Shown in pieces: positions 19,869 through 47,901 of a stretch of 64,000 nucleotides of DNA (within the stretch, counting starts at the first letter, position 1; every line of letters begins with the position of its first letter). The translations under genes were made by a program, and so were the position numbers. This stretch comes from a virus, in the IMG/VR virus record IMGVR_UViG_3300036766_000416, positions 1 to 64,000 of that record, one strand, 5' to 3'. Under the pieces are notes generated by a model. That model was not told the DNA's origin. It saw only the letters and a program-made list of their open reading frames with translations, and searched no databases.

Positions 19869-19872
19869 ATAT

Positions 19873-29875: not shown

Positions 29876-30316
29876 GCGTTGTTTTTTCTTAGAGGCTACC
29901 ATGTTAGCGATGCGGGTGGGGGTTTGAGGTCCGAGTTTTTTGGTTTTGTAGGGTGCTCGTTTTTTGCCAAGTTGACGAATCGAGCAGGCCTCTCGGTGTT
30001 CCTTGGATAATTTCTTTCCTGTCTGCATAATACGCAGTTTTTCTTTATGAGCTTGGGATAGATGTCTTCCCTTATTAGCAAAGAAGATGACTTGTCGAAT
30101 GAGTTCTTCTTTCCCTATTTGACCGGAAATGCTAAGGGACACTAAATGATCGTATTTTATTCCATTCAACTCATAGCATAGCTGATGGGCCTGAGAGTGT
30201 TGTTCTGTTGTAAGGTTTACCCGGTTATCAGGAGAATTGAACTCTTTATTCCAGCGAGTTGCTCTAGGATTTATTCTCTTTTTCCATTCATGAAGGGGAA
30301 TAATGTGATGTATCAT
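29843..30316 (-). CDS. HNH homing endonuclease (leftward)
   Basis: This encodes 157 residues. MIHHIIPLHEWKKRINPRAT and TTEQHSQAHQLCYEL give the HHIIP-type HNH site, followed by GKKLSKEHREACSIRQLGKK repeats. It is the only leftward gene in a rightward block, which fits insertion. Its ATG at 30316 lies 5 nt after a TATAAATA box and has no ribosome site. Confidence 0.85.
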   Translation of the reverse strand: MIHHIIPLHEWKKRINPRATRWNKEFNSPDNRVNLTTEQHSQAHQLCYELNGIKYDHLVSLSISGQIGKEELIRQVIFFANKGRHLSQAHKEKLRIMQTGKKLSKEHREACSIRQLGKKRAPYKTKKLGPQTPTRIANMVASKKKQRLLRLLNSAIG

Positions 30317-30321
30317 GTTTC

Positions 30322-30329
30322 TATTTATA
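30322..30329 (-). promoter_or_regulatory. T4-type late promoter box (leftward)
   Basis: TATAAATA read leftward, then GAAAC and ATG. It drives the HNH gene. Confidence 0.7.
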
Positions 30330-30351
30330 ATACAAGGAGGAATCATAGACA

Positions 30352-30600
30352 ATGGTGAATAAAGAATTGTTGGCTCCAAAGGAAATTACCCGCGCCGAAC
30401 TGAAAGCGTTGGTGGATGAGTGGACCGAAAAGGGCGGCAAGATCACACAATGCCCACCGGGTGTCGCACTGAATTTTAGGTCGGCTGAGTTGGAGAACAA
30501 TCCGGCTCAGGCAAAGCGTCGGTTTCCCAAGCCTGTCACCACAAAAAAGGCAGGGAAGGATGGGAAGGCCAAGGATAAGTCCAAGAAAAAGTGGAAGTAG
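30352..30600 (+). CDS. Hypothetical protein with basic tail, 82 aa
   Basis: The N-terminal helix pair (ELKALVDEWTEKGGKITQCP) is followed by a Lys-rich end (KKAGKDGKAKDKSKKKWK). AAGGAGG lies 12 nt upstream of ATG 30352. It resembles small basic phage proteins of unknown function. Confidence 0.55.
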   Translation: MVNKELLAPKEITRAELKALVDEWTEKGGKITQCPPGVALNFRSAELENNPAQAKRRFPKPVTTKKAGKDGKAKDKSKKKWK

Positions 30601-30603
30601 GCC

Positions 30604-30632
30604 TTGACAAGTGTGTGTAAGTGTGCTATAAT
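30604..30632 (+). promoter_or_regulatory. sigma70-like promoter
   Basis: TTGACA at 30604-30609 and TATAAT at 30627-30632 are spaced 17 bp with TGTGC before the -10, close to consensus. Confidence 0.8.
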
Positions 30633-30652
30633 ATCATGGTTGGAGGTGTATA

Positions 30653-30973
30653 ATGTCAGTAGGACGTGGTCGAAGTAAGCAAGTTTCTCAGGCGGAAAAA
30701 ATTCTGTTGGTGCTCCTGGATGGCCATGAGGCTCCCATTGGTGAGATCGAAACTCTTCTGGGTGCCCAGATTGTCTTGGCTCGTTTCTCAGCGTACCTAT
30801 GGGACCTCAAGCAAGTGGGTGCCGTGGTCAAGCGGAACAAGGTTGGTCGCAAGGTGGTCTCGTTGCAGTTGATGAACATGGAGCCGATGGTAGAGTATAT
30901 GAGAGCCCGTGGTCTCATTGCTCCTCTCCCTGTAGTCCTCAAAGCTGAGGACCTGATGGTCGCTTCCGTTTAA
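30653..30973 (+). CDS. Winged-helix-like phage protein
   Basis: This encodes 106 residues. A helix-turn-helix-like region (SQAEKILLVLLDGHEAPIGE ... FSAYLWDLKQVGAVV) is followed by basic strands (KRNKVGRKVVSLQL). It is probably DNA binding. GGAGG supports ATG 30653. It may regulate phage or host genes. Confidence 0.55.
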   Translation: MSVGRGRSKQVSQAEKILLVLLDGHEAPIGEIETLLGAQIVLARFSAYLWDLKQVGAVVKRNKVGRKVVSLQLMNMEPMVEYMRARGLIAPLPVVLKAEDLMVASV

Positions 30974-30984
30974 TTGGGGTGGAG

Positions 30985-31056
30985 TTGAGTGAGATTCATA
31001 ACTCTTGGCGGCACCCGCTTTAAGGGTGTTTTGCTGGAAGTCGAATGCTCACTCAA
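30985..31056 (+). ncRNA. Long-stem structured RNA element
   Basis: TTGAGTGAG-ATTC (30985-30997) pairs with GAAT-G-CTCACTCAA (31043-31056), a 13-bp stem with one bulge. It encloses a 5-bp hairpin CACCC-GCTTTAA-GGGTG. There is no CCA or terminator T-run. It could be a leader element for the WGR gene at 31079 or a small RNA. Confidence 0.5.
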
Positions 31057-31078
31057 CGGTCCATCTCTCTAGGACATT

Positions 31079-31408
31079 ATGAGTTTTTTATCCGATAGCC
31101 TTGAAAGACACCTGAGGGAAATTCAAAACCCCTCCAAGGTGGTCGCTGCGAAACCAGAAGTTTCGTTTGAATACATTGTCGCAACCAAGTCGTTGTTTTT
31201 CAAAGAAGGAACCTCTGACAAAGAGTATCACGTTCAGGTCGTTCGGGTCAGTGCTAACAATCTTGATTGCCACGTTAGATTTCAGTATGGTCGACGAGGA
31301 AAAACTCTCATCGAAGGGTCGAAAACATCCGAGCCCGTTTCGATAGATGAGGCCAGAAGACTTTTCAATGAAGTGGTGAACTCAAAAATTGTCAAGGGGT
31401 ACAGATAG
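31079..31408 (+). CDS. WGR-domain protein
   Basis: This encodes 109 residues. The WGR core is SLFFKEGTSDKEYHVQVV then VRFQYGRRGKTLIEGSKT and FNEVVNSKIVKGYR. WGR modules bind nucleic acid in PARP and ligase proteins; the phage ligase at 20835 has a related N-terminus. It overlaps the phosphoesterase start. Confidence 0.8.
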   Translation: MSFLSDSLERHLREIQNPSKVVAAKPEVSFEYIVATKSLFFKEGTSDKEYHVQVVRVSANNLDCHVRFQYGRRGKTLIEGSKTSEPVSIDEARRLFNEVVNSKIVKGYR

Positions 31409-32061
31409 TGCGAATCGTAGCAATGAGCGATACCCACGGGTACCACAAGCGTTTGACCATCCCTGATGGTGACCTGTTGATCCATTGTGGTGACTTTTCA
31501 ATGAGGGCCAAGCACCACGACCTCATTCAATTTGCACAGTGGTTCAAGGCACTCCCTCATAAGCACAAGATTTTCGTGCCGGGCAACCACGACATGATCT
31601 GTGAGACTGATCCGCATTGGGCTCGCCAAGAATTGGGTGGGGTGATCTATCTGGACCATAGCGTGACTGGAAGGGTTGAAGGTTATCGTATCTTTGGGTC
31701 CCCCTATACGCAAGCCATCTATGACCCGTCACCGTGGTTCTTTGACTATCAAAAAGGTCCTCGTTCAAGAGAACTGTGGGACCAGATTCCTGATGGCATA
31801 GACATTTTGATTACCCATGGGCCGCCTAAGGGCATCATGGATTTGGTACCCTCTCCTATGCCCGGGGAATCACCGAACGTGGGTGATGTGAACCTTTTGA
31901 CTCGCGTGATGGACGTCAAACCGGCATTGATGTTTTTTGGTCATATTCACGAGGGCTACGGGTCTTATATTCGTGAATATTGGGATACCAAGTTCTATAA
32001 TGTGGCAATTTGCGATGGTCAGTATCAACCAGTGAACCCTGTAACTGTGATGGACATCTGA
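31408..32061 (+). CDS. Calcineurin-like metallophosphoesterase
   Basis: This encodes 217 residues. Metal ligands are in SDTHG, HCGDF, PGNHDM, THGPP and FGHIHEG. It is related to the MPPED1/cyclic-nucleotide phosphodiesterase branch. The substrate is unknown; nucleotides or RNA ends are possible. GTG start. Confidence 0.88.
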   Translation: MRIVAMSDTHGYHKRLTIPDGDLLIHCGDFSMRAKHHDLIQFAQWFKALPHKHKIFVPGNHDMICETDPHWARQELGGVIYLDHSVTGRVEGYRIFGSPYTQAIYDPSPWFFDYQKGPRSRELWDQIPDGIDILITHGPPKGIMDLVPSPMPGESPNVGDVNLLTRVMDVKPALMFFGHIHEGYGSYIREYWDTKFYNVAICDGQYQPVNPVTVMDI

Positions 32062-32073
32062 TAGGAGAACGAT

Positions 32074-32220
32074 ATGCCCCAGTACCTCGTCAAGAATATC
32101 GAGACCCAAGTGGTCTCAGAGTTGCCCCTGATGTCATGGGAACAGTTTCAGAAATTCCTTAGTGACAATTCAAACTACGAGCAGGTACTCACAAGACCTG
32201 CGTTCGTCAAGGTGAACTGA
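32074..32220 (+). CDS. Small hypothetical protein, 48 aa
   Basis: It encodes MPQYLVKNIETQVVSELPLM... and has the same strand-helix layout as the next protein (32220), including MSWEQFQKFLSDNSNYEQVL against ISGLETFVKEHPELEQVFLS. The two may be tandem relatives. GGAGAACG precedes the ATG. Confidence 0.55.
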   Translation: MPQYLVKNIETQVVSELPLMSWEQFQKFLSDNSNYEQVLTRPAFVKVN

Positions 32221-32480
32221 TGCCACGCTACGACTTCAAAAACAAAGAGACCGGTGAGGTGTCTGAACACGCCATGACGATTTCTGGACTGGAGACCTTT
32301 GTCAAGGAACACCCAGAGCTTGAACAAGTCTTTCTGTCCCTGAACGTAGGGGACCCTGTGTTGCTGGGTGTCAAGAAGGTGCCTAGCGATTTCACGAATT
32401 ATATCATTTCTCCCATAGAAAAACATTATTTCAAGAAACGTCGAGAGACCCGTTTCGGAACTAGCAAGCAGCAAGTATGA
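32220..32480 (+). CDS. Hypothetical protein, 86 aa (FmdB-like pattern without Cys)
   Basis: It starts MPRYDFKNKETGEVSEHAMT, typical of small T4-like phage proteins, and has a basic C-terminus. It overlaps the previous stop by one base and the nuclease gene by 4 nt. Confidence 0.55.
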   Translation: MPRYDFKNKETGEVSEHAMTISGLETFVKEHPELEQVFLSLNVGDPVLLGVKKVPSDFTNYIISPIEKHYFKKRRETRFGTSKQQV

Positions 32481-33166
32481 TCTTCGAGCGAACCACAATA
32501 CCCGGTCTCCAGTTTGAGCTTCCTGTGTTGACCCGTGCGGGAGCTAGGTACTATGTGACACCTGAGGGTGCCAAGTACCCGTCAGCTTCAACGGTCGCTG
32601 GGCTCCTGACTCGTGATGGTATCAACGCCTGGAGGGCTCGTGTAGGCACCGAAGAGGCTGATCGAATCTCCAAGCGTGGTGCTGACCGTGGGACCAATGT
32701 CCATGCAGTCTGTGAGAGGTACCTCGATGGTACTCTGACGACACTTCAGCGACTTGGTATCATGCCGACGATTAAAGAGATGTTCCTGTCACTGCAGCAC
32801 AAATTTGACGCGAATATTTCGATGGTCTATGCGATTGAGCAACCTCTGTATTCTGACCGACTCAAGATTGCTGGACGCACCGACGCAGTGGTACGCTGGG
32901 CTGGGGAGACGGTGATTCTTGACGTCAAGACCGCGAATCGCCACAAGCCCGATGAGTGGATACTGAACTACTTTGTGCAGACCTCCGCCTATGCGGAGAT
33001 GTTTGAAGAGCGCACAGGTATGCCCATTGATCGTATTGTGCTCTCAACGGCCATTGAGGGTGAGACCCACGCGGTGATCCACAACAAACCAAAAGCAGAG
33101 TATCTGCCTATTCTTCGTCGGTGTATCGACCAATACTACAAGGAAAACGGTTCACAGTTCGTCTAG
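32477..33166 (+). CDS. PD-(D/E)XK exonuclease (RecB/Cas4-like)
   Basis: This encodes 229 residues. The motifs are GADRGTNVHAVCERYLDG, GRTDAVVRW and VILDVKTAN (the D-x-K core), then QTSAYAEMFEERTG. This is the exonuclease type seen in many T4-like phages. It probably acts in recombination or host DNA breakdown. Confidence 0.85.
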   Translation: MIFERTTIPGLQFELPVLTRAGARYYVTPEGAKYPSASTVAGLLTRDGINAWRARVGTEEADRISKRGADRGTNVHAVCERYLDGTLTTLQRLGIMPTIKEMFLSLQHKFDANISMVYAIEQPLYSDRLKIAGRTDAVVRWAGETVILDVKTANRHKPDEWILNYFVQTSAYAEMFEERTGMPIDRIVLSTAIEGETHAVIHNKPKAEYLPILRRCIDQYYKENGSQFV

Positions 33167-33177
33167 GAGGTCACTCC

Positions 33178-33720
33178 ATGCGACACGAAATCCTACATTT
33201 GGTTCGAGTGGTGTTCGCCCTTGTGTTGATCGTGTACCCTCTTGCCGAGGTCTCCACGTTCGATACAGCGGACTCTCCGTACCGTGAGAAGCCTCAAACG
33301 ACCCCATACACCCCCACTTCCCAGGATGAGTATTGCCTGACGCAGGCCATCTACTATGAAGCAGGTAACCAAACGGTCATGGGCAAGGAAGCGGTCGCCT
33401 GGGTTGTGGTGAATCGTGTGGGTCGCCGTGGGTACCCTAAGAGTGTCTGTGGGGTCATTGCTCAGTCTCGCAGGGTGGAAGAGGTCAAAGTCTGCCAGTT
33501 CTCGTTCTGGTGCGAGGCTCGCTACAAGCCCAATAGGGTGATCTGGAAAGAATCAAAAGAAATCGCTCACCGGGTCTTGCAAAATGTCGGGATTCATGCT
33601 ATAATAGATCAATATGGTGAAGCGACCTATTTCCATGCGGATTATGTCAGACCGAAGTGGCGCAAGTCCAAAGAGTTTTTGGGGAAGATTGACAACCATT
33701 TATTCTATAAGGAACCATGA
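33178..33720 (+). CDS. SleB-type cell-wall hydrolase (endolysin)
   Basis: This encodes 180 residues. An N-terminal hydrophobic segment (LVRVVFALVLIVYPLA) acts as a signal or signal-anchor. The catalytic domain follows: TQAIYYEAGNQTVMGKEAVA, WVVVNRVGRRGYP and VKVCQFSFWCE with the conserved Glu and Cys/aromatic residues. GGAGGTC precedes ATG 33178. The two small membrane proteins after it suggest a lysis cassette. Confidence 0.85.
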   Translation: MRHEILHLVRVVFALVLIVYPLAEVSTFDTADSPYREKPQTTPYTPTSQDEYCLTQAIYYEAGNQTVMGKEAVAWVVVNRVGRRGYPKSVCGVIAQSRRVEEVKVCQFSFWCEARYKPNRVIWKESKEIAHRVLQNVGIHAIIDQYGEATYFHADYVRPKWRKSKEFLGKIDNHLFYKEP

Positions 33721-33818
33721 TGAGAATTGAGAGTTGGCTGTTTGCAGTGTCACTGATGATTTTGGTGATCGTGTTCTCGTTGGCGATAGTGGGTCTAGTG
33801 AAATACTTTTTTGAGTGA
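33717..33818 (+). CDS. Small one-helix membrane protein, 33 aa (holin/pinholin candidate)
   Basis: A single transmembrane helix (WLFAVSLMILVIVFSLAIVG) with a charged short tail. It overlaps the lysin stop (ATGATGA). Position next to the lysin suggests a lysis role, which is not proven. Confidence 0.5.
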   Translation: MMRIESWLFAVSLMILVIVFSLAIVGLVKYFFE

Positions 33819-33828
33819 TGGAGATTCG

Positions 33829-33969: not shown

Positions 33970-33977
33970 GGGGTATC

Positions 33978-35051: not shown

Positions 35052-35659
35052 GTGCGACGGGTTTCGAAGCCTTCAAGTTGTATCAATCTCTTCACCTCCA
35101 TTTCACAGACCCTAGGTACGATTTCTTTCGTTACAAGGGGTCTGTGAAACATTGTACCCCCGAAAAGTTTGAGATCCGCCGGGACAAGTTTTTCTTCCAT
35201 CGGTTAGCCAAAAGGTATCCGAACACCGAGGACCTTGTGTTCTTCCTGGCGGCCAACTTCTTCTCACAGAAGGTTGATTGGGTGCGCGATGTCACCTCTG
35301 ATGAGTCCGAGGACGTCTACATGCGCTGTCTGCGTATAAAAGAGTCCCTGGAGTATGTGGTGAACGGTGACCTCAGAGAGCAGGGGTATACCATAGATAC
35401 CCTCCAAGCAGCCATCAGGGTGACCAATGGACAGTACCCACCTTTGTTGACCAAGGCTCTGGAGCATGACATACACGAAGAGACCGTGATCGTGCTGAAT
35501 ACCCTGATAGAATTTCTGCCGTCCTGGGGTAAGCTGGTCACTGATACCATCCTATTTCCACCAATCAAACTTCGCTATGAACGCTATGCGCCGTTTTTAG
35601 AAATAAACCTGAACAAGTTCAGAGGATCACTACGAACACAATTGATGCAGAATAAATAA
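35048..35659 (+). CDS. 59: gp59-like helicase loader
   Basis: This encodes 203 residues. TGFEAFKLYQSLHLHFTDPR and EIRRDKFFFHRLAKRYPN match the start of T4 gp59 (217 residues), an all-helical protein that loads gp41 helicase on gp32-covered DNA. The gene order gp33-gp59-gp32 is as in T4, with an HNH gene inserted before gp32. Confidence 0.85.
   Translation: MSATGFEAFKLYQSLHLHFTDPRYDFFRYKGSVKHCTPEKFEIRRDKFFFHRLAKRYPNTEDLVFFLAANFFSQKVDWVRDVTSDESEDVYMRCLRIKESLEYVVNGDLREQGYTIDTLQAAIRVTNGQYPPLLTKALEHDIHEETVIVLNTLIEFLPSWGKLVTDTILFPPIKLRYERYAPFLEINLNKFRGSLRTQLMQNK
35651..35658 (+). promoter_or_regulatory. Late-promoter-like box
   Basis: AATAAATA, 5 nt before the ATG of the HNH gene. It matches TATAAATA in 7 of 8 positions. 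Confidence 0.45.
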
Positions 35660-35663
35660 ATTT

Positions 35664-36221
35664 ATGGCATATAATTATTCCTACGAACACCACATCATTC
35701 CTCTCCATGAGTGGAAGCGACGAATCAATCCAAAAGCCACCAGGCGTGATAAGGATTTTAATGCCCCCAATAATATTGTGTGGCTAACCTCGGAGCAGCA
35801 TATTCAGGTTCACCAGTTACTTTGGGAATTAAATAATTCGAAGTTCGACTTAATGGCGGCGCGCCTGATGTCTAAGCAAATTACAGACGAAGAGTCTTTT
35901 ATGGAACTCTGCCGAATTGGTGGTGTAATGAGTGGTTTGGCAAATAGAGGAAAGAAATATGCCGCGTGGACAAGAGAACGCCGCCATAGTCAGTCCGAAC
36001 GTATGGTTGGTAATCAGAACACTCTGGGTTATAAACACACAGAGGAATGGAAACAGGAGAAGTCTGCCAGCACGGTGGGTAACCAATATGCTAAAGGTAG
36101 CAAGCGAACTTTAGAACAAAGCATGGCACGAAAAGTCGCCAGACCTAGAAAGGAGCGAGAACCTCACATTTACAAACGTGGCCCTTACAAAAAGAAAAAT
36201 CTTGACAAGCTAACTAAATAG
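35664..36221 (+). CDS. HNH homing endonuclease
   Basis: This encodes 185 residues. YEHHIIPLHEWKRRINPKAT and TSEQHIQVHQLLWEL form the HNH site, followed by GNQNTLGYKHTEEWKQEKSA repeats and a basic end. It is inserted between gp59 and gp32, and its last codons contain the gp32 promoter, so insertion did not break gp32 expression. Confidence 0.87.
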   Translation: MAYNYSYEHHIIPLHEWKRRINPKATRRDKDFNAPNNIVWLTSEQHIQVHQLLWELNNSKFDLMAARLMSKQITDEESFMELCRIGGVMSGLANRGKKYAAWTRERRHSQSERMVGNQNTLGYKHTEEWKQEKSASTVGNQYAKGSKRTLEQSMARKVARPRKEREPHIYKRGPYKKKNLDKLTK

Positions 36222-36230
36222 TGTTATACT
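36202..36230 (+). promoter_or_regulatory. sigma70-like promoter for gene 32
   Basis: TTGACA at 36202-36207 and TATACT at 36225-36230 are spaced 17 bp. It overlaps the end of the HNH gene and leaves a 56-nt leader before gp32. Confidence 0.75.
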
Positions 36231-36286
36231 TGCATCCACATACGGGTTTTCAATAACCATATACTATCACCAATAGGAGGTTTCTT

Positions 36287-37349: not shown

Positions 37350-39257
37350 TTACGCAGGAGCAAAGCCCCTGTCCAGAGACCGCAAATAGCTCGATTCGCC
37401 GCTCCTGGCTGGGGGCATATTTTGATGTGTGGTAGTAGAGTTTGTGGTCTGGTTTTTCACATTATTGATGATTGTTGGTGCCACGATACCCTGTGTCGCG
37501 GGTGTCATAGCTGCATTTCTTTGAAGATCATTCGCTTGCGTGAGGGTTTGTCCTGTCTGTGGAGTCGCCGCCGGAAGTTCGGTGGGTGACGATGACATGA
37601 GGGTTTGAGGTACACTGCTATTCTCATAGGAATTTTCACCACCCATAGATGCAGGTGTTACAGACGAACCAGTTTGGCCTACGATAGCATCCAACCTCGC
37701 TGCGTCATCCCCAACAGCAGTCGGTGATTCGGACTTTGTTTTAGCTTCACCCATGAGCCAATCAGAGACAGACTCTTTGGCCATGGTCATCAGGCTGGGC
37801 AACCTTTCGGCGATCAGAGGATCGGTGAATGGATCAGCGTTGTAGATTTCCATATACGCATCACGTACCAGTGAGGCCACCAGTGACGGGATAGCCGCGC
37901 CAGGAATTGGAAGTGCTCCAGCGGCGTCGATGCCCGCACCCACCAGATCACCTTGAAGTAAGCGTGATGCAGCGAACGCAAGACCTACTGCGGACCCCAC
38001 TACAGGGATCAAAGTTGCAGCTTTCGACCCCAGAATCTTCGGAGCGATTCTTCCGAGGACCCCGGCAATTTTACTCTTGGGGGCAATCTTAGCCACCCCC
38101 TCAACGGCGACACCCACACCTTTGGTGATCTTGGAGGCGCTGCTGAGTTCTTTTGCTGCAATTTTTCCGGCAGCTTTTTCTCCGGCTTCTCCAACAACCT
38201 TCGCACCAGTTCCCAGGATTTTACCTGCGAGATCCTTGACACCACCTATAATGGCTTTTCCACCTTTGAGAATGGCTGAGCCTCCTTTGGTGACCGCACC
38301 TATTGCACCCTTACCTAAGGATTTCAAGGCACCGGTGATGGAGGGAAGAAGTCTGGTCAATGCTCCACCGAGAAGTGATAGTGGATTGAGGAGTTTACCC
38401 AGTGAAGCTGCGAATTCTAAAGCTGCGGCACCAAGTATCTTGAACCACCCCATGAGCGTTTCGAGCCAGGAGGGACCTTCTTTTTTCTCCTCGCCTTTGA
38501 TAATTTGTTTGGGTGTAACCTTTTTGAATTTTGCGCTTTCAGCAGCTTCTTTGTCCCTGATGCGTTCTGCTTCTGCCTTGGCTAATCCAACTCCCTGCTC
38601 CTCAAATTTTTCTATGTTATGGAGCGACAACACCATTTTTTCTAATAGATTGAGAACCTTTGTTGAAGAGACTGGCGAGGCACCACCTTCCGTGCCCTCG
38701 TTTGCTGGGCTTGGGCTTCCGGCTGCCCCTGCAGCACCATCCAGACCTGGAGGAAGGACACCTTGTAAACCCGCTGCACTGCGTATTGATTGCTCAGAGC
38801 GACCCATGATGCGGCCAGCCAAGACAGTAGCGAGCTTTGAGCCACCGGTGAGTCTGTGAACGATGTTGAGAGGATCGAACCGTTTCTTGATTGATGTTTT
38901 GATTTTTCGAGTTTTGAATCCTGCAGCAGCGCCAATTGCACCCTTGACGGAACCTCCACCCGCGAGGTGTTCGGCTGCTACATCAGCCATTGTGTTTTCA
39001 CGTTGCTGACTTTCGACTATTCGGCTTCTAATATTTCTGAGGGCTGCAAGGATTTCTTTTTTTGTTTCTTTTCCAAGTTCTACTTTAGGAGGTTTGGGAT
39101 CTTTAGGAGCGCGAGGGGTTGGACGGTGCTCGTGTTTGATGTTCGCCTTGGCCACTTCTTCCACGGGCTTTGTTTGCGAGGCAATTTTCTCAAGGCTCTC
39201 GCGCATGTCAGCAAACTGATCTTTCATATCTTTGAATGGGTCTTTTTCTTCAGCCAT
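37350..39257 (-). CDS. Tape-measure-like virion structural protein
   Basis: This encodes 635 residues. The N-terminal charged helices (FKDMKDQFADMRESLEKIAS) lead to a long Gly/Ala/Leu-rich hydrophobic middle (about 265-470) and a C-terminal low-complexity part with INNVKNQTTNSTTTHQN, common in tail tape-measure and inner tail proteins. T4 gp29 is 590 residues and neighbours gp48, as here. ATG 39257 lies 5 nt after TATAAATA with no ribosome site. Confidence 0.55.
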   Translation of the reverse strand: MAEEKDPFKDMKDQFADMRESLEKIASQTKPVEEVAKANIKHEHRPTPRAPKDPKPPKVELGKETKKEILAALRNIRSRIVESQQRENTMADVAAEHLAGGGSVKGAIGAAAGFKTRKIKTSIKKRFDPLNIVHRLTGGSKLATVLAGRIMGRSEQSIRSAAGLQGVLPPGLDGAAGAAGSPSPANEGTEGGASPVSSTKVLNLLEKMVLSLHNIEKFEEQGVGLAKAEAERIRDKEAAESAKFKKVTPKQIIKGEEKKEGPSWLETLMGWFKILGAAALEFAASLGKLLNPLSLLGGALTRLLPSITGALKSLGKGAIGAVTKGGSAILKGGKAIIGGVKDLAGKILGTGAKVVGEAGEKAAGKIAAKELSSASKITKGVGVAVEGVAKIAPKSKIAGVLGRIAPKILGSKAATLIPVVGSAVGLAFAASRLLQGDLVGAGIDAAGALPIPGAAIPSLVASLVRDAYMEIYNADPFTDPLIAERLPSLMTMAKESVSDWLMGEAKTKSESPTAVGDDAARLDAIVGQTGSSVTPASMGGENSYENSSVPQTLMSSSPTELPAATPQTGQTLTQANDLQRNAAMTPATQGIVAPTIINNVKNQTTNSTTTHQNMPPARSGESSYLRSLDRGFAPA

Positions 39258-39262
39258 GGTAG

Positions 39263-39270
39263 TATTTATA
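39263..39270 (-). promoter_or_regulatory. T4-type late promoter box (leftward)
   Basis: TATAAATA, then CTACC, then the ATG of the structural gene at 39257. Confidence 0.75.
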
Positions 39271-40152
39271 TCACAGAAACGGAAGGTCTCTTTCGGTGAG
39301 CACTAGGAATTCCCAACCCTGGTCTTTGGCGAATATTGTGGCCGCGGCAAACTTTGCTTGATTGGTGGCTACAATTGCAGCCTCTTGTAGCAGTTTTTGC
39401 GACCTTCGTTTTGATTGACGTAGCACCGTATCATTAAAAGGTTTTATTTCGATGATAAAGACCTTGATACCTGTCTTTGTTTGAACCTTGGTTAGAAAAT
39501 CTGGATAGTATGTTCGTTGTTTCTGTTTGACGGGGTCAAAGTAAGGTATTTTTAATTCTTCGCTAGACCAAGAGATCGTGGCCGGAGATTCGTCGATCCA
39601 ATACATCACCCTTTTCTCCCACATAGAACGATACACGATTGTCTTGATATTCCCAACGTATTTTGTTGGGTTACGTGGGGTAAAAAACCCTTTGTAGGTC
39701 ATTCTTCCGTTATTCATTCTAAACGCTCCTCTTGTTGCCATAGATAGGGCAATTTTCTTGTATCGAGCATCGTAAAATTGCTGTAAAATCTCAGGAGACG
39801 ATTCTTTATGCCAACGATGGATGCTATTACGGGCAAGTTCTTGTCTTTGTTCTAGGGTCAATCTATTAGTATTCTTCTTTATTAGTTGTTCTTTTGACAT
39901 CAGACTATTTTGTAACCTTATAGTTTGTCCTATCTTTGTTCTTATATTAGCCCCCTCTACTGTCTCTTCCCTCTCTTTCCACAGTCGTTCCATGTTACCT
40001 CGAACCTTTTCTACAAATTGGGAATGCCGTATGGGGTCATTTTTGAGTTTGAGTCTATACAGCTTGGCCGCACAGGACCTAGAGCAACATGGTTGTTTGG
40101 TGGTAGGGATGTGGCAGAATTGGCACTGACCGAGGGTATAAATATCCGACAT
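39271..40152 (-). CDS. gp4-type head-completion nuclease with zinc-finger N-terminal extension
   Basis: This encodes 293 residues. The C-terminal 150 or so (GFFTPRNPTKYVGNIKTIVY, ISWSSEELKIPYF, TYYPDFLTKV, FIIEIKPFNDT) matches the T4 gp4/50 head-completion family with its PD-ExK-like core. The N-terminus adds about 130 residues with CQFCHIPTTKQPCCSRSCAA and a Lys/Arg helical linker resembling homing-nuclease DNA-binding modules. GGGAGG supports ATG 40152; ATG 40209 is 4 nt after the late box. Confidence 0.75.
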   Translation of the reverse strand: MSDIYTLGQCQFCHIPTTKQPCCSRSCAAKLYRLKLKNDPIRHSQFVEKVRGNMERLWKEREETVEGANIRTKIGQTIRLQNSLMSKEQLIKKNTNRLTLEQRQELARNSIHRWHKESSPEILQQFYDARYKKIALSMATRGAFRMNNGRMTYKGFFTPRNPTKYVGNIKTIVYRSMWEKRVMYWIDESPATISWSSEELKIPYFDPVKQKQRTYYPDFLTKVQTKTGIKVFIIEIKPFNDTVLRQSKRRSQKLLQEAAIVATNQAKFAAATIFAKDQGWEFLVLTERDLPFL

Positions 40153-40213
40153 AGCTGGACCTCCCGAAAGGTTTAGAGTGTCTGGGGTGGCGAAACCCGC
40201 GAGGCACATCTTC

Positions 40214-40221
40214 TATTTATG
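40214..40221 (-). promoter_or_regulatory. Divergent late promoter, leftward box
   Basis: CATAAATA read leftward. With the rightward copy 3 nt away it forms the near-palindrome TATTTATGTCACATAAATA. Confidence 0.7.
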
Positions 40222-40224
40222 TCA

Positions 40225-40232
40225 CATAAATA
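40225..40232 (+). promoter_or_regulatory. Divergent late promoter, rightward box
   Basis: CATAAATA followed by C, 27 nt before the gp48 start, which has its own GGAGG ribosome site. Confidence 0.7.
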
Positions 40233-40259
40233 CACTGATGCAGTCCATTGGAGGTATTT

Positions 40260-41339
40260 ATGGCGGACGAGAGTCTCGTTGGTGATATACAAAACTATGT
40301 GGTAGATAAGTTCAAACAGTTGGTGAATAGCGAGACAGCACGAAACGCTGCATTCGTTACCAGGGATGCGATCAATAGCATTACGGCTGAGGAGACGCAG
40401 GAGCAACGTGGTAAGAATGTAAAAGAACAAAAACTTTACCAATACAAGTATCACCAGTATCCCCTCGATTTAGCAAAAGGCGGCCGCCATCCATACTATA
40501 TGACATTTTTTATTGCGACTCAAGACTTGTCCCAATTCAAGCGCCCAAAGTCAAAAGGTCCGGCTCCTCTGTCTACCGTTGATATCAACGCCAGGGCTAC
40601 TAAGACTTTAGCTAAAAATTATAAGGACAGCAATATAGGTTTCGGTAGAAAAACCCATCGCACAACCAATGCGATCCGGTTATACATGCCCGATAGCTTG
40701 AGTTGGAATTTCCGCAACCAATTTGGTGACGTGAGTTTATCGGGGATTCCTGGTACGGCCCTAGCTCAGGCTATCGCCTCGGGTCCTGCTTTAGCCAATT
40801 CTCTTATCGAAGGCTACCAAAAGAGCGGTATTACTGGACTCCTGGCCAGTCTCAATTCCAAGGAAGCGCGCGCCGCGGCCGCTCCACTCGCCGAGGTTAT
40901 TGGAGATAAAATTCCAGGAGTTGGTTCTGGATTACTAACCTCGGCCCTAGGTGTGGCGGTAAATCCACAGATCGATGTCATTTATCAATCTCCATCTCTA
41001 CGAGAATTTATATTTGACTACCTTTTTGCCCCTCGTAATGCTCAAGAATCGGCTATGGTGTCCGATATTATCAAATTATTCAAATTTCATGCATCCCCCG
41101 AAATTCTTAGCACGGGGTTTGGTCGATATTTCATTCCACCATCGGAATTTGATATTGAATTTTCAGTAAATACCATGGGAAAGATTTCAACATGTGTGCT
41201 TGAGGAGGTGACCGTTGATTATGCACCATCAGGAGCCTCGTTTTACAGAAGCGATGATCAACCCGTCAATACGCATATGACCTTGAGATTCAAGGAACTC
41301 GAATTTATGACAAAGGAACTCATAGAAAGAGGATACTGA
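40260..41339 (+). CDS. 48: gp48-like tail-tube cap / baseplate protein
   Basis: This encodes 359 residues (T4 gp48 is 364). The C-terminal part SPSLREFIFDYLFAPRNAQE ... FGRYFIPPSEFDIEF ... VDYAPSGASFY ... MTLRFKELEFMTKELIERGY has the conserved order of gp48 proteins. It sits on the baseplate and starts the tail tube. GGAGG precedes ATG 40260. Confidence 0.82.
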   Translation: MADESLVGDIQNYVVDKFKQLVNSETARNAAFVTRDAINSITAEETQEQRGKNVKEQKLYQYKYHQYPLDLAKGGRHPYYMTFFIATQDLSQFKRPKSKGPAPLSTVDINARATKTLAKNYKDSNIGFGRKTHRTTNAIRLYMPDSLSWNFRNQFGDVSLSGIPGTALAQAIASGPALANSLIEGYQKSGITGLLASLNSKEARAAAAPLAEVIGDKIPGVGSGLLTSALGVAVNPQIDVIYQSPSLREFIFDYLFAPRNAQESAMVSDIIKLFKFHASPEILSTGFGRYFIPPSEFDIEFSVNTMGKISTCVLEEVTVDYAPSGASFYRSDDQPVNTHMTLRFKELEFMTKELIERGY

Positions 41340-41341
41340 AA

Positions 41342-41983
41342 GTGGCTGGACAATATTCCGAATTTCTTTCTTACATCAGTAGGTATGGGGTCGCTAAAAC
41401 CTCACACTTTCGATTATCCATACCCGCGGTGTTTAAGTTAGACAAAAAAAATAAATTCTCTGATATGGATAAACTACTGGGGCTAAGATGCGAAGCCACA
41501 GAATTACCTGGGCGGCAGATCATCTCCAATGATTCAAAGGTCTACGGTCCCACATATAAAACACCTTATCAGTCGCTCTATCAGGAAATTACATTGAATT
41601 TTATCGAAACTAGCTCATTCCTCATTCGTGATTTTTTTGAACAGTGGTTGAGCAACATCTTCAATCCAACCACAAACATGCTCGCTTATCCAGATGATTA
41701 TAGGTTTGAAGTGTCACTCAAACAATATGAAACATTTTTGGATGATGTAAATAATCCTAGTGCCAGCCTTGTAGCTACAGCAAAATGGAGACTCTATAAT
41801 TCGTTCCCCACTGCTGTCAACCAAATGCCAGTCGCATGGGCCGAAGATGGACTCCATCGAGTCACTGTCACCCTGGCCTATGAGTGGTACACACTCTCAA
41901 CAGGTGGTGATTCTCTGAGTGATGAAAGCCGAGAACGTCTCAAGTCTCCACAACAACCTCCAAAAGGAAGTGCTCGTCCATAA
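41342..41983 (+). CDS. 54: gp54/gp19-like tail-tube initiator
   Basis: This encodes 213 residues. FLSYISRYGVAKTSHFRLSI, LGLRCEATELPGRQI and SLYQEITLNFIETSSFLIRD are typical of tube-type proteins that polymerise on the baseplate. It follows gp48 as gp54 does in T4, but it is shorter (T4 gp54 is 320). GTG start. Assignment to gp54 and not gp19 rests on position. Confidence 0.7.
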   Translation: MAGQYSEFLSYISRYGVAKTSHFRLSIPAVFKLDKKNKFSDMDKLLGLRCEATELPGRQIISNDSKVYGPTYKTPYQSLYQEITLNFIETSSFLIRDFFEQWLSNIFNPTTNMLAYPDDYRFEVSLKQYETFLDDVNNPSASLVATAKWRLYNSFPTAVNQMPVAWAEDGLHRVTVTLAYEWYTLSTGGDSLSDESRERLKSPQQPPKGSARP

Positions 41984-42006
41984 TCATTCTAGAAAGGTGA
42001 ATTGTC

Positions 42007-42756
42007 ATGGCGTTACCCAAATTAACAGTGCCTCTGTATAATATCATGTGTCCGTCAGGATTGAAAGTCTCATTTAGACCATTCCTTGTCAAAGAAGAGA
42101 AACTTTTGATGATTGCCATGCAGTCAAGTGAAACAGAGACTATCATCAACACTGCTAAACAGATTCTTGAAAATTGTATTGGTAGTGTTTCGGGCATCGA
42201 TATTGATAAATTGCCCCTCTTCGATGTTGAGTTTTTGTTCCTGAATCTCCGGGCCCGTAGCATCGGTGAGCAAGTGACCTTGAGGTATAAGTGTAATCAA
42301 TCTGTGATTGATGCGAACACTGGTAATACAGAAATTTGTAATACCGTATCAGAATATCCCGTTGACTTACTGAGCATCCACCCGACGTTTGGTGTAGATC
42401 ACAACAAGTATATCCAATTGACAGAGAAGGTGGGCATCACCTTGAGATACCCTACATTCAAGGCATTTCGCAATATTGCTCGTCGAGACCTCCCAACCGA
42501 TGAGGCGTTTGCGTTTCTTGTGGAGTGTATTGAATCGATCAATGATAGCAATAGTGTAATTTTCACCAAGGACGTACCGGAATCCGAGGTGATCGAATTT
42601 ATCAATGATTTAAGTCATGCACAAGTCGAGAAGATGGATCATTTTTTCGACACGATGCCAAAGATTGAATTGACACTGCATTTCAAGTGCCCGAAGTGTC
42701 AGCACACAGAGGAAATTGTGGTGTCGGGGCTAGACAGTTTTTTCGTCTCATACTGA
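42007..42756 (+). CDS. 26: gp26-like baseplate hub protein (zero-frame product)
   Basis: This encodes 249 residues. KVSFRPFLVKEEKLLMIAMQ is the signature of the T4 baseplate-protein family (gp26-type), with a C-terminal zinc-like FKCPKCQHTEEI. The last codons contain T TTT TTC (42738-42744), where a -1 shift would join it to the frame that continues to 42941. AGAAAGG precedes the ATG. Confidence 0.82.
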   Translation: MALPKLTVPLYNIMCPSGLKVSFRPFLVKEEKLLMIAMQSSETETIINTAKQILENCIGSVSGIDIDKLPLFDVEFLFLNLRARSIGEQVTLRYKCNQSVIDANTGNTEICNTVSEYPVDLLSIHPTFGVDHNKYIQLTEKVGITLRYPTFKAFRNIARRDLPTDEAFAFLVECIESINDSNSVIFTKDVPESEVIEFINDLSHAQVEKMDHFFDTMPKIELTLHFKCPKCQHTEEIVVSGLDSFFVSY

Positions 42757-42941
42757 ACCATGATAATCTAGCGAACTACTACACCACAACGTTCGCTTTG
42801 GTTCAGGATCATAAATTTTCAATATCGGAACTTGAGAACCTCATGCCGTGGGAACGATTGGTGTATTTGACATTGGTGCAGCAACGTGTTGAAAAAGAGA
42901 ACGAACGAATCAGAGCCCTTAACGTACAAAGGAAACGATAA
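42744..42941 (+). CDS. Frameshift extension of gp26 (gp51-like tail)
   Basis: This -1 frame encodes 65 residues (RLILNHDNLANYYTTTFALV..., then MPWERLVYLTLVQQ and a charged end) with no start codon before an internal Met. It can be reached by -1 slippage on the heptamer T TTT TTC in the gp26 end, ten bases before the gp26 stop. The product would be a hub protein with a helical C-terminal domain, like tail-assembly chaperones made by frameshifting in other phages. Confidence 0.7.
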   Translation, partial: RLILNHDNLANYYTTTFALVQDHKFSISELENLMPWERLVYLTLVQQRVEKENERIRALNVQRKR

Positions 42942-42944
42942 ATA
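42937..42944 (+). promoter_or_regulatory. Late-promoter-like box
   Basis: GATAAATA, then CTCTT, then ATG of the next gene at 42950. Confidence 0.6.
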
Positions 42945-42949
42945 CTCTT

Positions 42950-43546
42950 ATGAGCACAATTATCCAACGTATCAATGAACAAGCTGTCACCAAAAAGGTG
43001 GATACCTCGACAGCCTTCGGTCGGTCTTGGCTTCTCCAAAAAATGGCGAAGCTGACACCATCGGCCAAAGACCGTATGGAGATTCTCCGTGACCGTGAAG
43101 CTCAACGCACTCGAACCATGGTGGGGAGATTCTATTTTTTCTTTTACTCACCCAAAGGGCACGAAACCCTCCCCTACTGGGACCGGTTTCCAATGGTGAT
43201 TCCTTTGATGAGGTACCATGACGGGTTCCTTGGCCTCAACCTTCATTACATTCCGCCAAAGGACCGATTGATACTCTTGACACAACTCAGGCGGTTCGCC
43301 ACGGGTCCGCTGACGGACGAACGCACTAGATTGCGATTATCGTATCCTATTTTGAAAGCCGCGCACCAAGCGTACCGCGCGACCCCCTGTATCAAGAGGT
43401 ACCTCGCGGGGCATGTACGTTCGAGGTTTATTGAGATACCCACAACCGAATGGGATATTGCAGCGTCCTTGCCAGTTCAAAGTTTTACCAGCAAAACTCG
43501 TATTCGCAAAGAAGAAGTATGGCAAGAGTCAAAGGAGCAATACTAA
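42950..43546 (+). CDS. Conserved T4-like structural-region protein, 198 aa
   Basis: The block GRFYFFFYSPKGHETLPYWD followed by YHDGFLGLNLHYIPPKDRLI, and an end with IKRYLAGHVRSRFIEIP and EWDIAASLPVQSF, is recognisable as a protein common in T4-like phages, sometimes linked to DNA-end or head functions. The role is unconfirmed. ATG 42950 lies 5 nt after a late box without a ribosome site. Confidence 0.6.
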   Translation: MSTIIQRINEQAVTKKVDTSTAFGRSWLLQKMAKLTPSAKDRMEILRDREAQRTRTMVGRFYFFFYSPKGHETLPYWDRFPMVIPLMRYHDGFLGLNLHYIPPKDRLILLTQLRRFATGPLTDERTRLRLSYPILKAAHQAYRATPCIKRYLAGHVRSRFIEIPTTEWDIAASLPVQSFTSKTRIRKEEVWQESKEQY

Positions 43547-44167: not shown

Positions 44168-44168
44168 C

Positions 44169-45482
44169 ATGCCTACACAAGATGGAATACAATACGCCAG
44201 CGAGTTTCAGCTTGACGCCCTCACCATTGTCAGTGCGAGTGGTGGTGTGGTGGACCTTCGTGAGGTCATGCGGGAATTGAACCTCTTTGAGGATTTGTTC
44301 AGTAATACCATGACGGGGAGCTTGTTCATTGCAGACACCCAAAATTTGATCAACATCCTTCCGATTGTGGGAGTTGAGCACTTGATTGTGACATTGATCA
44401 AACCTTCATCGCCATGGAAAATCAGTAAGACATTTCGTATTTATAAAATTACAGATCGTCGCAAAAGCGGCGCCGCCTCCGAAGATTATATCCTTCATTT
44501 TTGCTCCGAGGAATTGATTCTGAGTGAATCATTGAAAATATCAAAATCCTACAAGGGAATGACTGTCTCATCGATCATTAGTGACATCACCACAAATTAT
44601 CTCAAGATTGATTCACTCAAATTTCCCTTATCAGCACTCACTGCGACTGTCGGAAACTTTGATGTGGTGATACCTTATTGGACGCCATTTCAAGCCATCA
44701 ATTGGTTGTCGCGTATGGCACATACAGGTACGACCACTGGCTGTTCGTTCGTCTTTTTTGAAGATGGACTGGGGTATCACTTCAATGCGATTGAAACTAT
44801 GTCGCAACAAGAACCACTCCAGATTGTAAATTTTATGCCCATGAATCTCGCTGGAGAGACCAGTGAGAAGGGTGATAAATCCGACACACAAACACGATTG
44901 GAATCTGCAGAGGAGTATGAACTGAATCAGGCGCCAGATTTGCTCAAATCAATTTCTGGTGGTATGTATGCGAGTAAACTCAGACGAGTGAACACACTTG
45001 ACCAGCAAATCAAGACGACAACACAAAATGGAATAGAATTTTTTGGAAGAACCAAGCACCCCAACAAAAACACCTTCATGCAGACTGGGCAAGATAGAAC
45101 CCGCGTGATACAACCCGAGCATTTTGATGCGTTTCATCGTTCAGTTGTTGATAATTTGAGAGTTGAGACATGGTTATTGCAGCGTAATGCGTATATGGCA
45201 GCCCTACACGGATTTCAGGTGAAGGTTTCGCTACCCGGGAACATGAACTTGCGCGTGGGCCAAGTGGTGGTGCTGAACTTGCCTTCGGCTTCTATTGGTC
45301 TCAAGGATCAGAAACCTATGGATACTTTATTTTCTGGTAGATATATAATTACAGCGATTCGACATAAAGTAGATCGAACGAAGTATGCCTGTGTCCTCGA
45401 ATTGTCAAAGGATTCGCTCGAAGTAGCTTTGCCTGGACCTCTTGAGGGGAGTTCAGCTATGAAAACGATAAGGCAGGCATAA
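44169..45482 (+). CDS. 27: gp27-like baseplate hub protein
   Basis: This encodes 437 residues (T4 gp27 is 391). DLREVMRELNLFEDLFSNTM ... GSLFIADTQNLINILPIVG is the typical N-terminal tube-like domain of phage hub proteins, and the C-terminal part (VSLPGNMNLRVGQVVVLNLP) is also characteristic. It forms the central hub holding the gp5 spike. It overlaps gp5 by one base (TAATG). Confidence 0.82.
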   Translation: MPTQDGIQYASEFQLDALTIVSASGGVVDLREVMRELNLFEDLFSNTMTGSLFIADTQNLINILPIVGVEHLIVTLIKPSSPWKISKTFRIYKITDRRKSGAASEDYILHFCSEELILSESLKISKSYKGMTVSSIISDITTNYLKIDSLKFPLSALTATVGNFDVVIPYWTPFQAINWLSRMAHTGTTTGCSFVFFEDGLGYHFNAIETMSQQEPLQIVNFMPMNLAGETSEKGDKSDTQTRLESAEEYELNQAPDLLKSISGGMYASKLRRVNTLDQQIKTTTQNGIEFFGRTKHPNKNTFMQTGQDRTRVIQPEHFDAFHRSVVDNLRVETWLLQRNAYMAALHGFQVKVSLPGNMNLRVGQVVVLNLPSASIGLKDQKPMDTLFSGRYIITAIRHKVDRTKYACVLELSKDSLEVALPGPLEGSSAMKTIRQA

Positions 45483-46399
45483 TGGATACGAACATTGGTT
45501 CGCACTTTGTTTGGTGGGTAGGAGTCGTCGAGAGTCGCCAGGACCCTAAGAAAGTGGGTCGATGTCAGGTGCGTATTCTTGGTTCTCATACTGATTTGAA
45601 GTCTGTCATCCCCACAGAAAATCTTCCGTGGGCACAACCCTTGATTCCCCTCAATGACAATGCCTCACTGCAAATCAAAGAAGGTGATTATGTCGTAGGT
45701 TTCTATCTTGACGGACACGATTCTCAGGTACCCATCATCATGGGAATCCTTCCAGGTATTCCTGTGTCGCTTCCTGCTCCGACAGAAGGATTTGCAGACC
45801 CTAGAACAGGAAGGGAGCTATCCAGCGCACCTAGACAGCCAGGCGCTTCTACTGGAGTTCGGTATCCTTCGCGCCTGAACGAGTCCACATTGTCTCGTTT
45901 GGCGCGCAACGAAAAAATTAGTGATACCCCCATTCAATCGAAGAAAAGTAGCGTGTCCACAGTTTCTATCGCTGGTGGAGGTTCTTGGAGTGAGCCTCCG
46001 ACGCCATACGCTACAGTTTATCCTTACAATCGTGTCATGGAAACTGAATCGGGGCATATCCTGGAGTTTGACGAAACACCTGGGGCCGAGCGTGTCCATA
46101 TTTATCACCGTTCGGGAACGTTTGACGAGTATCATCCCGATGGCTCGAAGGTTACTAGAATCAATAAAGATGCCTATGAGATAGTGCTTTCAGATAAAAA
46201 TATCTATGTAAAGGGGTCCCTCAACATAACTGCGGACAAAGATGTTACGATCAAAGCTGGTCAGGATGTTACAATCGAAGCGGGCGGCAGTTTCAAAGTC
46301 AAAGCCGGAGTTTCGATTGAACAGGTTTCTGGAGCAGACACGAAACACACTGCTGGAGCCGGAATGTCCCTCAAGGGCGTTCCGATGAATTGGAACTAA
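45482..46399 (+). CDS. 5: gp5-like spike protein without lysozyme domain
   Basis: This encodes 305 residues (T4 gp5 is 575). The N-terminal OB fold (WWVGVVESRQDPKKVGRCQV ... LPWAQPLIP) is followed by a linker and a C-terminal beta-helix (ESGHILEFDETPGAERVHIY, DGSKVTRINKDAYEIV, then repeated short strands). There is no lysozyme domain between OB fold and helix, so the spike itself does not cut peptidoglycan. Confidence 0.85.
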   Translation: MDTNIGSHFVWWVGVVESRQDPKKVGRCQVRILGSHTDLKSVIPTENLPWAQPLIPLNDNASLQIKEGDYVVGFYLDGHDSQVPIIMGILPGIPVSLPAPTEGFADPRTGRELSSAPRQPGASTGVRYPSRLNESTLSRLARNEKISDTPIQSKKSSVSTVSIAGGGSWSEPPTPYATVYPYNRVMETESGHILEFDETPGAERVHIYHRSGTFDEYHPDGSKVTRINKDAYEIVLSDKNIYVKGSLNITADKDVTIKAGQDVTIEAGGSFKVKAGVSIEQVSGADTKHTAGAGMSLKGVPMNWN

Positions 46400-46400
46400 T

Positions 46401-46703
46401 ATGGGATTACCTGTTGTCAGAATGGGAATTGACATGTGCAGCGGGCATCCTGCTGGGCCGACGTATTTTCCTCCACGACCTGCAATTCAGGGGTCCACTG
46501 ATGTATTTGTTGATGGTCTTCCTGTTGTGCGTGTAGGGGATGTTTGGGCGATGCACACCGATATCATTAGTGTCCATTCAGGTCATGGTGTCTTGGGTTC
46601 TTTCACGGTCTTCTGTAATGGGCGGCCTGTTATGCGTATTTCGGACCCACTGGACTGTGGTTCGGTGTGCGCGATGGGTTCTTCGACTGTGTTTTGTGGA
46701 TAA
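46401..46703 (+). CDS. PAAR spike-tip protein
   Basis: This encodes 100 residues. GHPAGPTYFPPRPAIQGSTD, VFVDGLPVVRVGD, HTDIISVHSGHG and VFCNGRPVMRISDPLDCGS show the repeated PAAR pattern with His/Cys metal ligands. It caps the gp5 beta-helix and sharpens the spike, like gp5.4 in T4. Confidence 0.88.
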   Translation: MGLPVVRMGIDMCSGHPAGPTYFPPRPAIQGSTDVFVDGLPVVRVGDVWAMHTDIISVHSGHGVLGSFTVFCNGRPVMRISDPLDCGSVCAMGSSTVFCG

Positions 46704-46712
46704 GGAGGTAGC

Positions 46713-47495
46713 ATGGCGTTTTCATTAGACTTTGCTCACATACCTTCAGGGCTCGCTTTGCCGACCTTCCCGACCACCTCGTCTGGTATTAGCGATGTGT
46801 CAAAGAGTGTCATGGACAAAATCACGACCGATCCTGGAAGCCTCTTTACAAACCCCATGATTGGCTCGGTGAACTTTCTAGGTGATAGCACCACCAGATT
46901 GGAAACGACCCTTCAGAGTATTGCTTCAGGTGACCTGGTCAATGGGGGTATCTCCCAGTCTGAGGCCTCGAATTACCTGTCTCTGGACCCCCTCCAGGAC
47001 GTGCGAACCTCGATGGGAAATTTTATGATGCATACAGACCGACTGTCTGGATTGCTCAGGAGCCAGGGTATTCAGGCACCCGGGCTGCAGCAGGTGCTTT
47101 CTATTGGGGTGCAGATGCAAAATATGATGACCATACTTCAAGCAGGTTCTGGGTGCCTCCCGGTCATAGGTGGCTGCACCGGACTGTTCTCGGAGGAGGA
47201 TTTTCTAGGGTTCACCAATCAACTCAATAACATCCTGACCAGCCTAGAACGGGGGGCCGCAACGATTGCTAACATTACGGACACTGTGGCTACGGTGTCA
47301 AATTTTATTCGAGGCATCATGGACAAGGATAGTCAATTCTTGCAGAATTGCGTGAACCAGTTGCAGGCCGCGGGTGTTGGGTTGGTCTTGGAGGCCCTCG
47401 ATTCTAACCCGTGCGCCCATTTTTTATTTGATACAATTTCCAATAAAAACCCCGGTGGGTTGCTCAACGTCCTTTCGAAGCCCATCATCGGATAA
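46713..47495 (+). CDS. Baseplate-region structural protein, 260 aa
   Basis: It is mostly helical with many Ser/Thr/Asn residues. It contains SGCLPVIGGCTGLFSEEDFL and a C-terminal NPCAHFLFDTISNKNPGGLL block that look conserved between related phages. It lies between PAAR and gp25, so a baseplate role is likely, but the exact role is unknown. AGGAGGT precedes the ATG. Confidence 0.55.
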   Translation: MAFSLDFAHIPSGLALPTFPTTSSGISDVSKSVMDKITTDPGSLFTNPMIGSVNFLGDSTTRLETTLQSIASGDLVNGGISQSEASNYLSLDPLQDVRTSMGNFMMHTDRLSGLLRSQGIQAPGLQQVLSIGVQMQNMMTILQAGSGCLPVIGGCTGLFSEEDFLGFTNQLNNILTSLERGAATIANITDTVATVSNFIRGIMDKDSQFLQNCVNQLQAAGVGLVLEALDSNPCAHFLFDTISNKNPGGLLNVLSKPIIG

Positions 47496-47497
47496 CA

Positions 47498-47505
47498 TAT
47501 AAATA
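47498..47505 (+). promoter_or_regulatory. T4-type late promoter box
   Basis: TATAAATA, then AGTAAC, then ATG of gp25 at 47512, with no ribosome site in between. Confidence 0.72.
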
Positions 47506-47511
47506 AGTAAC

Positions 47512-47901
47512 ATGGCCACACCTATCATTTACCAGGATTTTACGTTAGATTTTTCTATCCACCCGATCAGGAAAGACCTGGTTCTCAAGAGCAATGAGGA
47601 TGTGGTCATAAGGGCGATTATGAACCTCTTGAGGACGAACCATTACGAAGTTCCCTTCCACCCCGAAATCGGGTGTAACATTAGAAAGCTGTTGTTTGAG
47701 AATGTCTCTGAATTCACGGCCCGTGATATTTCTCGATTTATCCAAGAATGTATAGAAAATTTTGAACCGAGGGCCACTATCCAATCGTTGGCGGTGTCAC
47801 CCAATGAAGATTTGAATGCCTATGAAGTGAGGTTGCGGGTGTTCGTAAACACGTTCGCTAACCCATTGACTGTGGATTTTATCCTGGAGAGAGTGAGATA
47901 A
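47512..47901 (+). CDS. 25: gp25-like baseplate wedge protein
   Basis: This encodes 129 residues (T4 gp25 is 132). DFTLDFSIHPIRKDLVLKSN, AIMNLLRTNHYEVPFHPEIG, EPRATIQSLAV and YEVRLRVFV follow the gp25/lysozyme-like wedge family, whose name does not imply lytic activity. It connects the wedge to the sheath. Confidence 0.9.
   Translation: MATPIIYQDFTLDFSIHPIRKDLVLKSNEDVVIRAIMNLLRTNHYEVPFHPEIGCNIRKLLFENVSEFTARDISRFIQECIENFEPRATIQSLAVSPNEDLNAYEVRLRVFVNTFANPLTVDFILERVR

Follow-up and report, generated by a model that had tools for sequence, protein, structure and literature searches.

Late promoter boxes adjoining start codons point to a subset of leaderless or nearly leaderless late genes in a T4-like phage and its relatives

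The textbook view is that T4-like phages express their late genes as SD-led (Shine-Dalgarno-led) transcripts from TATAAATA. In the DNA analyzed here, a window of 64,000 nt (positions 1 to 64,000 of virus record IMGVR_UViG_3300036766_000416; the whole record, 178,609 bp or 178.6 kb, is denoted G000), an earlier note had placed late boxes only 5–6 nt before an ATG at five sites, which raises the question of whether the corresponding mRNAs start at their own initiation codons. The coordinates and spacings (5, 5, 5, 5, and 6 nt) are confirmed.

G000 is a T4-like myovirus, its closest named relative by gp6 being Pelagibacter phage HTVC008M (42%). A near-identity search of phage records yielded no match, nor did a search of genome contigs with gp6 for a host link. 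A search of genome contigs with the gp25 alignment produced distant matches, the best of them in MAG contigs of Pelagibacter and Flavobacteriaceae, whose gp25 is leadered. The boxes counted were of the T4 type, NATAAATA, following the published consensus for the T4-type late promoter octamer (PMC2984593, PMC1524935, PMC2988020), and an ATG was counted only if it opened an ORF of at least 60 aa. This octamer is present upstream of late genes in G000. Genes with a box close to the ATG, and their boxes, are the following.

30322..30329, minus strand: late box TATAAATA, spacer GAAAC (5 nt), then ATG 30316
29843..30316, minus strand: HNH homing-endonuclease-like gene, 157 aa (MIHHIIPLHEWKK...), PHROG 314, weak match (E=7e-4)
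35651..35658, plus strand: late box variant AATAAATA, spacer AATTT (5 nt), then ATG 35664
35664..36221, plus strand: HNH homing-endonuclease-like gene, 185 aa, PHROG 655 (E=1.5e-5)
39263..39270, minus strand: late box TATAAATA directly after the gene 4 stop, spacer CTACC (5 nt), then ATG 39257
37350..39257, minus strand: gene of a 635-aa protein, counterpart of the HTVC008M putative tape measure by position only
42937..42944, plus strand: late box GATAAATA, spacer CTCTT (5 nt), then ATG 42950
42950..43546, plus strand: gene 2, DNA end protector, 198 aa, PHROG 429 (E=3.6e-48)
47498..47505, plus strand: late box TATAAATA, spacer AGTAAC (6 nt), then ATG 47512
47512..47901, plus strand: gene 25, baseplate wedge subunit, 129 aa, PHROG 261 (E=1.3e-34)
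63793..63800, plus strand: late box TATAAATA, 9 nt (CCTTTCACT) before ATG 63810 of a 633-aa ORF running out of the window
165023 of G000, outside the window: GIY-YIG endonuclease gene of the same near-box class

The start of the first HNH gene is placed at ATG 30316 based on the similarity of its short N-terminus, preceding HHIIP, to the paralogue at 47901; upstream of it there is no same-strand gene, and the divergent plus-strand gene at 30352 is preceded by a separate SD, AAGGAGG. The box of the second HNH gene, at 35664, is a variant with A at –13, overlaps the stop codon of the preceding gene, and is the weakest of the five; T4 late promoters tolerate A(–13) variants (PMC2988020). No sequence match was found between the 635-aa protein and the HTVC008M putative tape measure, the gene of which likewise has a box at 5 nt; counting against the leaderless reading, the 635-aa gene in the relatives L045 and L046 lacks a complete box and is preceded by an SD-like AAAGGA. 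The AAGGA located approximately 16 nt upstream of ATG 42950 is too far for a normal SD. The gene at 63810 is predicted from its gap to have a leader of 3–4 nt, and the same box layout is observed at G001 79041 and G002 86646. The endonuclease homologues found comprise four HNH for 30316, four HNH for 35664, and 17 GIY-YIG proteins; no box was seen before the few inspected, which likewise counts against the leaderless reading.

Two minor observations concern these loci. The 633-aa protein belongs to a tandem paralogue family with about four matching stretches each in G001 (77524–84433) and G002 (81096–88121), and one paralogue copy in each of G000, G001, and G002 is preceded by the layout of box, 8–9 nt, and ATG. 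A third HNH-like gene (window 47901–48452) lies between gene 25 and gene 6, overlapping the gene 25 stop; genes 25 and 6 are adjacent in the relatives L016 and L050.

The short spacing is strongly overrepresented. In G000, an ORF-starting ATG is found at 5–9 nt from seven of 46 NATAAATA boxes, with 0.90 expected (P=3.1e-5); none is found at 10–14 nt, and 11 at 18–32 nt. The excess is even more prominent in HTVC008M (12 close sites vs. 0.79 expected, P=1e-11) and is also seen in G006 (7 vs. 0.39, P=5e-8), G001 (5 vs. 0.66), and G002 (3 vs. 0.57), while in G003, where CTAAATA is used at gene 25, it is weak (1 vs. 0.53). T4 itself has no ORF-starting ATG at 5–9 nt from any of its 65 NATAAATA boxes (1.11 expected), most of them being located 18–32 nt upstream of the ATG with an SD in between. 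Among the 21 possible arrangements of its seven letters (A5T2), ATAAATA scores highest in G000, G001, HTVC008M, G006, and G002.

Distances from boxes to start codons are thus bimodal: the box lies either 5–9 nt before the ATG without an SD, or approximately 17–36 nt before it, mostly with a strong SD. In HTVC008M, ATAAATA occurs within 45 nt of 17 CDS, at 5 nt in nine cases, at 7 nt in one, at 8 nt in two, at 9–17 nt in none, and at 18–30 nt in five, and all 12 close sites coincide with independently annotated GenBank CDS starts. The five far-box genes all have strong SDs (mean -7.5 kcal/mol), as opposed to most of the 12 near-box genes (median +0.25). The near-box genes start with ATG in 12 of 12 cases, but so do 189 of all 197 HTVC008M genes. 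When six non-T4 genomes are pooled, SD strength differs sharply between the near and leadered classes (35 vs. 56 genes, Mann-Whitney p=3e-13). The duplex energy is about zero for most near-class genes; a few reach -3 to -5, with the purines overlapping the spacer or situated about 15–16 nt from the ATG. The duplex energies agree with the earlier claim that no ribosome site separates box and ATG, as an SD at a functional distance is absent.

The leadered group of G000 includes the tail tube gene (98592), gene 48 (40260), and a baseplate wedge gene (52882). Three of its boxes in the window serve as comparators.

40225..40232, plus strand: box CATAAATA, leadered, with SD GGAGG downstream and then gene 48 at 40260
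52852..52859, plus strand: box CATAAATA, leadered, followed by 22 nt, an SD, and the baseplate wedge gene at 52882
54232..54239, plus strand: box TATAAATA, leadered, followed by 28 nt, an SD-like sequence, and a gene at 54268

The ATG at 40238, 5 nt after the plus-strand box, lies within the gene 48 leader and is a decoy, not a gene start; the region 40214–40262 between genes 4 and 48 contains divergent, partly palindromic CATAAATA boxes. As about 13 of the 20 gene-linked late boxes in G000 are leadered, most with a strong SD, the "widespread leaderless expression" proposed earlier goes too far, although it probably holds for a subset of late genes.

In T4, TATAAATA occupies positions –13 to –6, and +1 is six bases after the box (PMC1524935; PMC2988020). 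By this numbering, +1 falls on the A of AUG whenever the gap is 5 nt, that is, at four of the five window sites and at nine of the 12 HTVC008M sites. G000 encodes a gp55 homologue (110445–110930; 41% identity over residues 12–172 of HTVC008M gp55, E=2e-38), and therefore initiation at the AUG is directly predicted. Gaps of 6–9 nt predict leaders of 1–4 nt, not strictly leaderless mRNAs; with a gap of 4 nt, T4 numbering would put the start at the U of AUG, so that the start site there must be one base closer. Judging from these sequence features, it is very probable that in G000 and in many relatives the mRNAs of several late genes start at the AUG or within a few bases of it. As the mechanism, we propose, with a probability of about 0.8, that gp55-dependent T4-type late promoters are fused to start codons, which would yield leaderless or nearly leaderless (1–4-nt leader) mRNAs for a subset of late genes, covering genes 25 and 2, the 635-aa protein, the two HNH and one GIY-YIG endonucleases, and the 633-aa protein (63810).

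The arrangement is conserved. At gene 25, a box is present at 4–9 nt in all 20 distinct upstream sequences from close relatives and HTVC008M, and in 59 of 65 distinct sequences of a wider set that includes four bacterial-MAG contigs; in the remaining six, the box is further off, mostly with an SD. One large clade (45 distinct sequences) has the gene 25 box 4 nt from the ATG; in this set, selected for the exact box, the unselected flanks carry little information. Several of these relatives have GGAGG about 15 nt upstream of the ATG, which appears to code for the C-terminal Gly-Gly of the preceding gene and is lost in synonymous variants. The start residues M1 and A2 of gene 25 are invariant in 12 aligned relatives. 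At gene 2, 16 of 17 distinct sequences have a box at 4–5 nt. Among named phages, Pelagibacter phage Mosig has a box 8 nt before gene 25, and Methylophilales phage Melnitz has three annotated genes with a box at 5 nt, the one following gene 4 probably being gene 2; gene 25 of Melnitz is leadered, hence the state of the box (near or leadered) changes between lineages. No box precedes gene 2 in Ochrobactrum phage OC, with AGGA instead, or in cyanophage S-CAM3, with a strong SD, and gene 2 of Pseudomonas phage pf16 has neither a box nor a strong SD.

Comparison of the window region 37350–43546 with L045, L046, L050, G001, G002, G003, and HTVC008M demonstrates that genes 4, 2, and 48, those at 41342 and 42007, and the 635-aa gene differ in order and orientation from one relative to the next. 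In most relatives, gene 2 is preceded by gene 4; in G000 its upstream neighbour is a different gene, and in HTVC008M it opens a divergent operon. It retains its box and 5-nt gap in all three upstream contexts. The position after gene 4, in turn, is always taken by a near-class gene, be it gene 2, in HTVC008M gene 48, or in G000 the 635-aa gene. At HTVC008M 6280 and 75559, terminator-like hairpins, judged by eye with no folding, adjoin the box.

The same region shows two further features. A segment of G000 is inverted relative to L046 and L050; its breakpoints coincide with the points where box and ATG meet at gene 2 and at the 635-aa gene, and both flanks there carry an ATAAATACT-like sequence. 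The gene 4 ORF (window 39271–40209, minus strand) is extended at the N-terminus by about 165 residues, including a Cys-rich stretch, that are unmatched in relatives; an alternative start with an SD is found at 39717, and in the long form CATAAATA precedes the ATG by 4 nt.

The layout could also be explained by translational coupling, with the box serving for transcription only and ribosomes that terminate at the upstream stop of a polycistronic message initiating at the near ATG. Four of the five window ATGs are indeed 4–16 nt after an upstream stop (35659, 39271, 42941, 47495), and the box often overlaps or adjoins this stop. However, coupling cannot account for every case, as HNH 30316 lacks a same-strand upstream gene; together with this gene, the three contexts of gene 2, including the divergent operon that it heads in HTVC008M, and the hairpins adjoining boxes argue against coupling as a general explanation, nor does it predict a fixed box gap of 4–5 nt. 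We consider it unlikely. SD-less starts exist in many bacteria, and initiation without an SD on a longer leader might be envisaged, where transcription starts well upstream and the box with its spacer, A/T-rich and probably unstructured, is simply a part of an S1-binding leader. This is still less probable: the exact heptamer matters, since ATAAATA exceeds all 20 other arrangements, nothing upstream is conserved like the box in the gene 25 set with the 4-nt gap, and the same heptamer at a longer gap is accompanied by a strong SD.

Least credible of all is that A/T-rich octamers precede, by chance or through gene-calling errors, ATGs that are not real starts. Decoys do exist, as illustrated by 40238 and by pf16, where none of five pattern matches falls at an annotated start, but the spacing statistics, the independent annotation of the HTVC008M starts, the invariant beginning of gene 25, and box conservation at genes 25 and 2 contradict this; such an explanation may hold for 35664 alone. 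Late promoters fused to start codons thus remain the preferred reading, and the earlier claim that the mRNAs begin at the AUG is well supported by spacing statistics, SD absence, conservation, and context, the exact 5' end being a prediction.

Under late promoter fusion, transcription would start at the AUG or a few bases before it, from the gene's own late promoter, and translation would proceed via recognition of the 5'-AUG with no SD pairing. Longer read-through RNA would plausibly be hardly translated for near-box genes because it has no SD there, and synthesis would then be tied to firing of the gene's own late promoter, which may suit homing endonucleases and low-copy virion parts. More tentatively, and at somewhat less than even odds, in a large group of T4-like phages outside the T4 subgroup such late-promoter/start-codon modules of about 15 bp may act as a translation lock, only RNA starting there being translatable, retained by genes 25 and 2 through gene-order shuffling and here present also before homing endonuclease genes.

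The lambda cI transcript from PRM is a leaderless mRNA. The near-box genes resemble such phage mRNAs in the predicted 5' AUG and the lack of an SD, but the lambda-type cases are single genes transcribed from sigma70 promoters, whereas here the arrangement is repeated and conserved in late genes of G000 and its relatives. Lambda as the first leaderless phage mRNA case is cited in PMC3160421. Leaderless bacterial genes likewise lack an SD and have a promoter element, a –10-like TA signal, at a constant short spacing of about 10–12 bp upstream of the start (PMC3160421); in G000, the element is a phage late-sigma box found at a subset of late phage genes. With T4 late promoters (gp55/gp33/gp45), G000 shares the octamer, the gp55 homologue, and the late structural genes, differing in the gap. 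In T4 gene 25, a hairpin closes the extended spacing between the SD and the start, and in T4-type homing endonucleases (I-TevI, mobE) the RBS is hidden by a hairpin in early RNA, leading to late-only synthesis (PMC3014915). Hence, initiation in these gene classes is unusual in T4 as well, with endonuclease translation limited to late transcripts, but near-box genes of G000 have no SD at a functional distance.

A literature search, incomplete in coverage, retrieved no paper describing late genes of T4-like phages as leaderless. Each of the two elements, the leaderless mRNA and the T4 late promoter, is known, and their conserved fusion appears to be new. If abundant aquatic phages do carry a conserved leaderless subset, gene finders and expression models for such phages would need to be changed, and the host ribosome would have to initiate on 5'-AUG mRNAs to make essential virion parts (genes 25 and 2). 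With the isolate HTVC008M, the leaderless reading can be tested directly.

Ribosomal protein bS21 was considered as a phage-encoded helper and rejected: it is present in the marine isolates HTVC008M (91228–91431) and Melnitz (35461–35619) and absent from G000 and the IMG/VR relatives tested, and so provides no general explanation.

The early-gene leaderless pattern, also claimed previously, is real for some genes, e.g., at 108016 (TTGACA-17-TATAAT-7 nt-ATG), conserved in G001 at 110473; sigma70-like promoters with an ATG at 5–8 nt are observed at 8063, 8495, 106308, 108016, and 136926. Elsewhere the pattern is ambiguous: the near ATG is followed by another in-frame ATG that has an SD (6425), or it opens no long frame, as in the repeated TAGATCATGGATAG leader at 126511. 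Early genes thus lend the leaderless reading partial support. Four sigma70-like promoters (G000 4935, 6425, 28533, 126511) share a common downstream leader, TAGATCATG, which in three of them continues with GATAG and the ATG of which, at least at 126511, does not open a long frame. The window also contains 25 tRNA genes (12967–19951), one of them called as tRNA-Cys with anticodon ACA.
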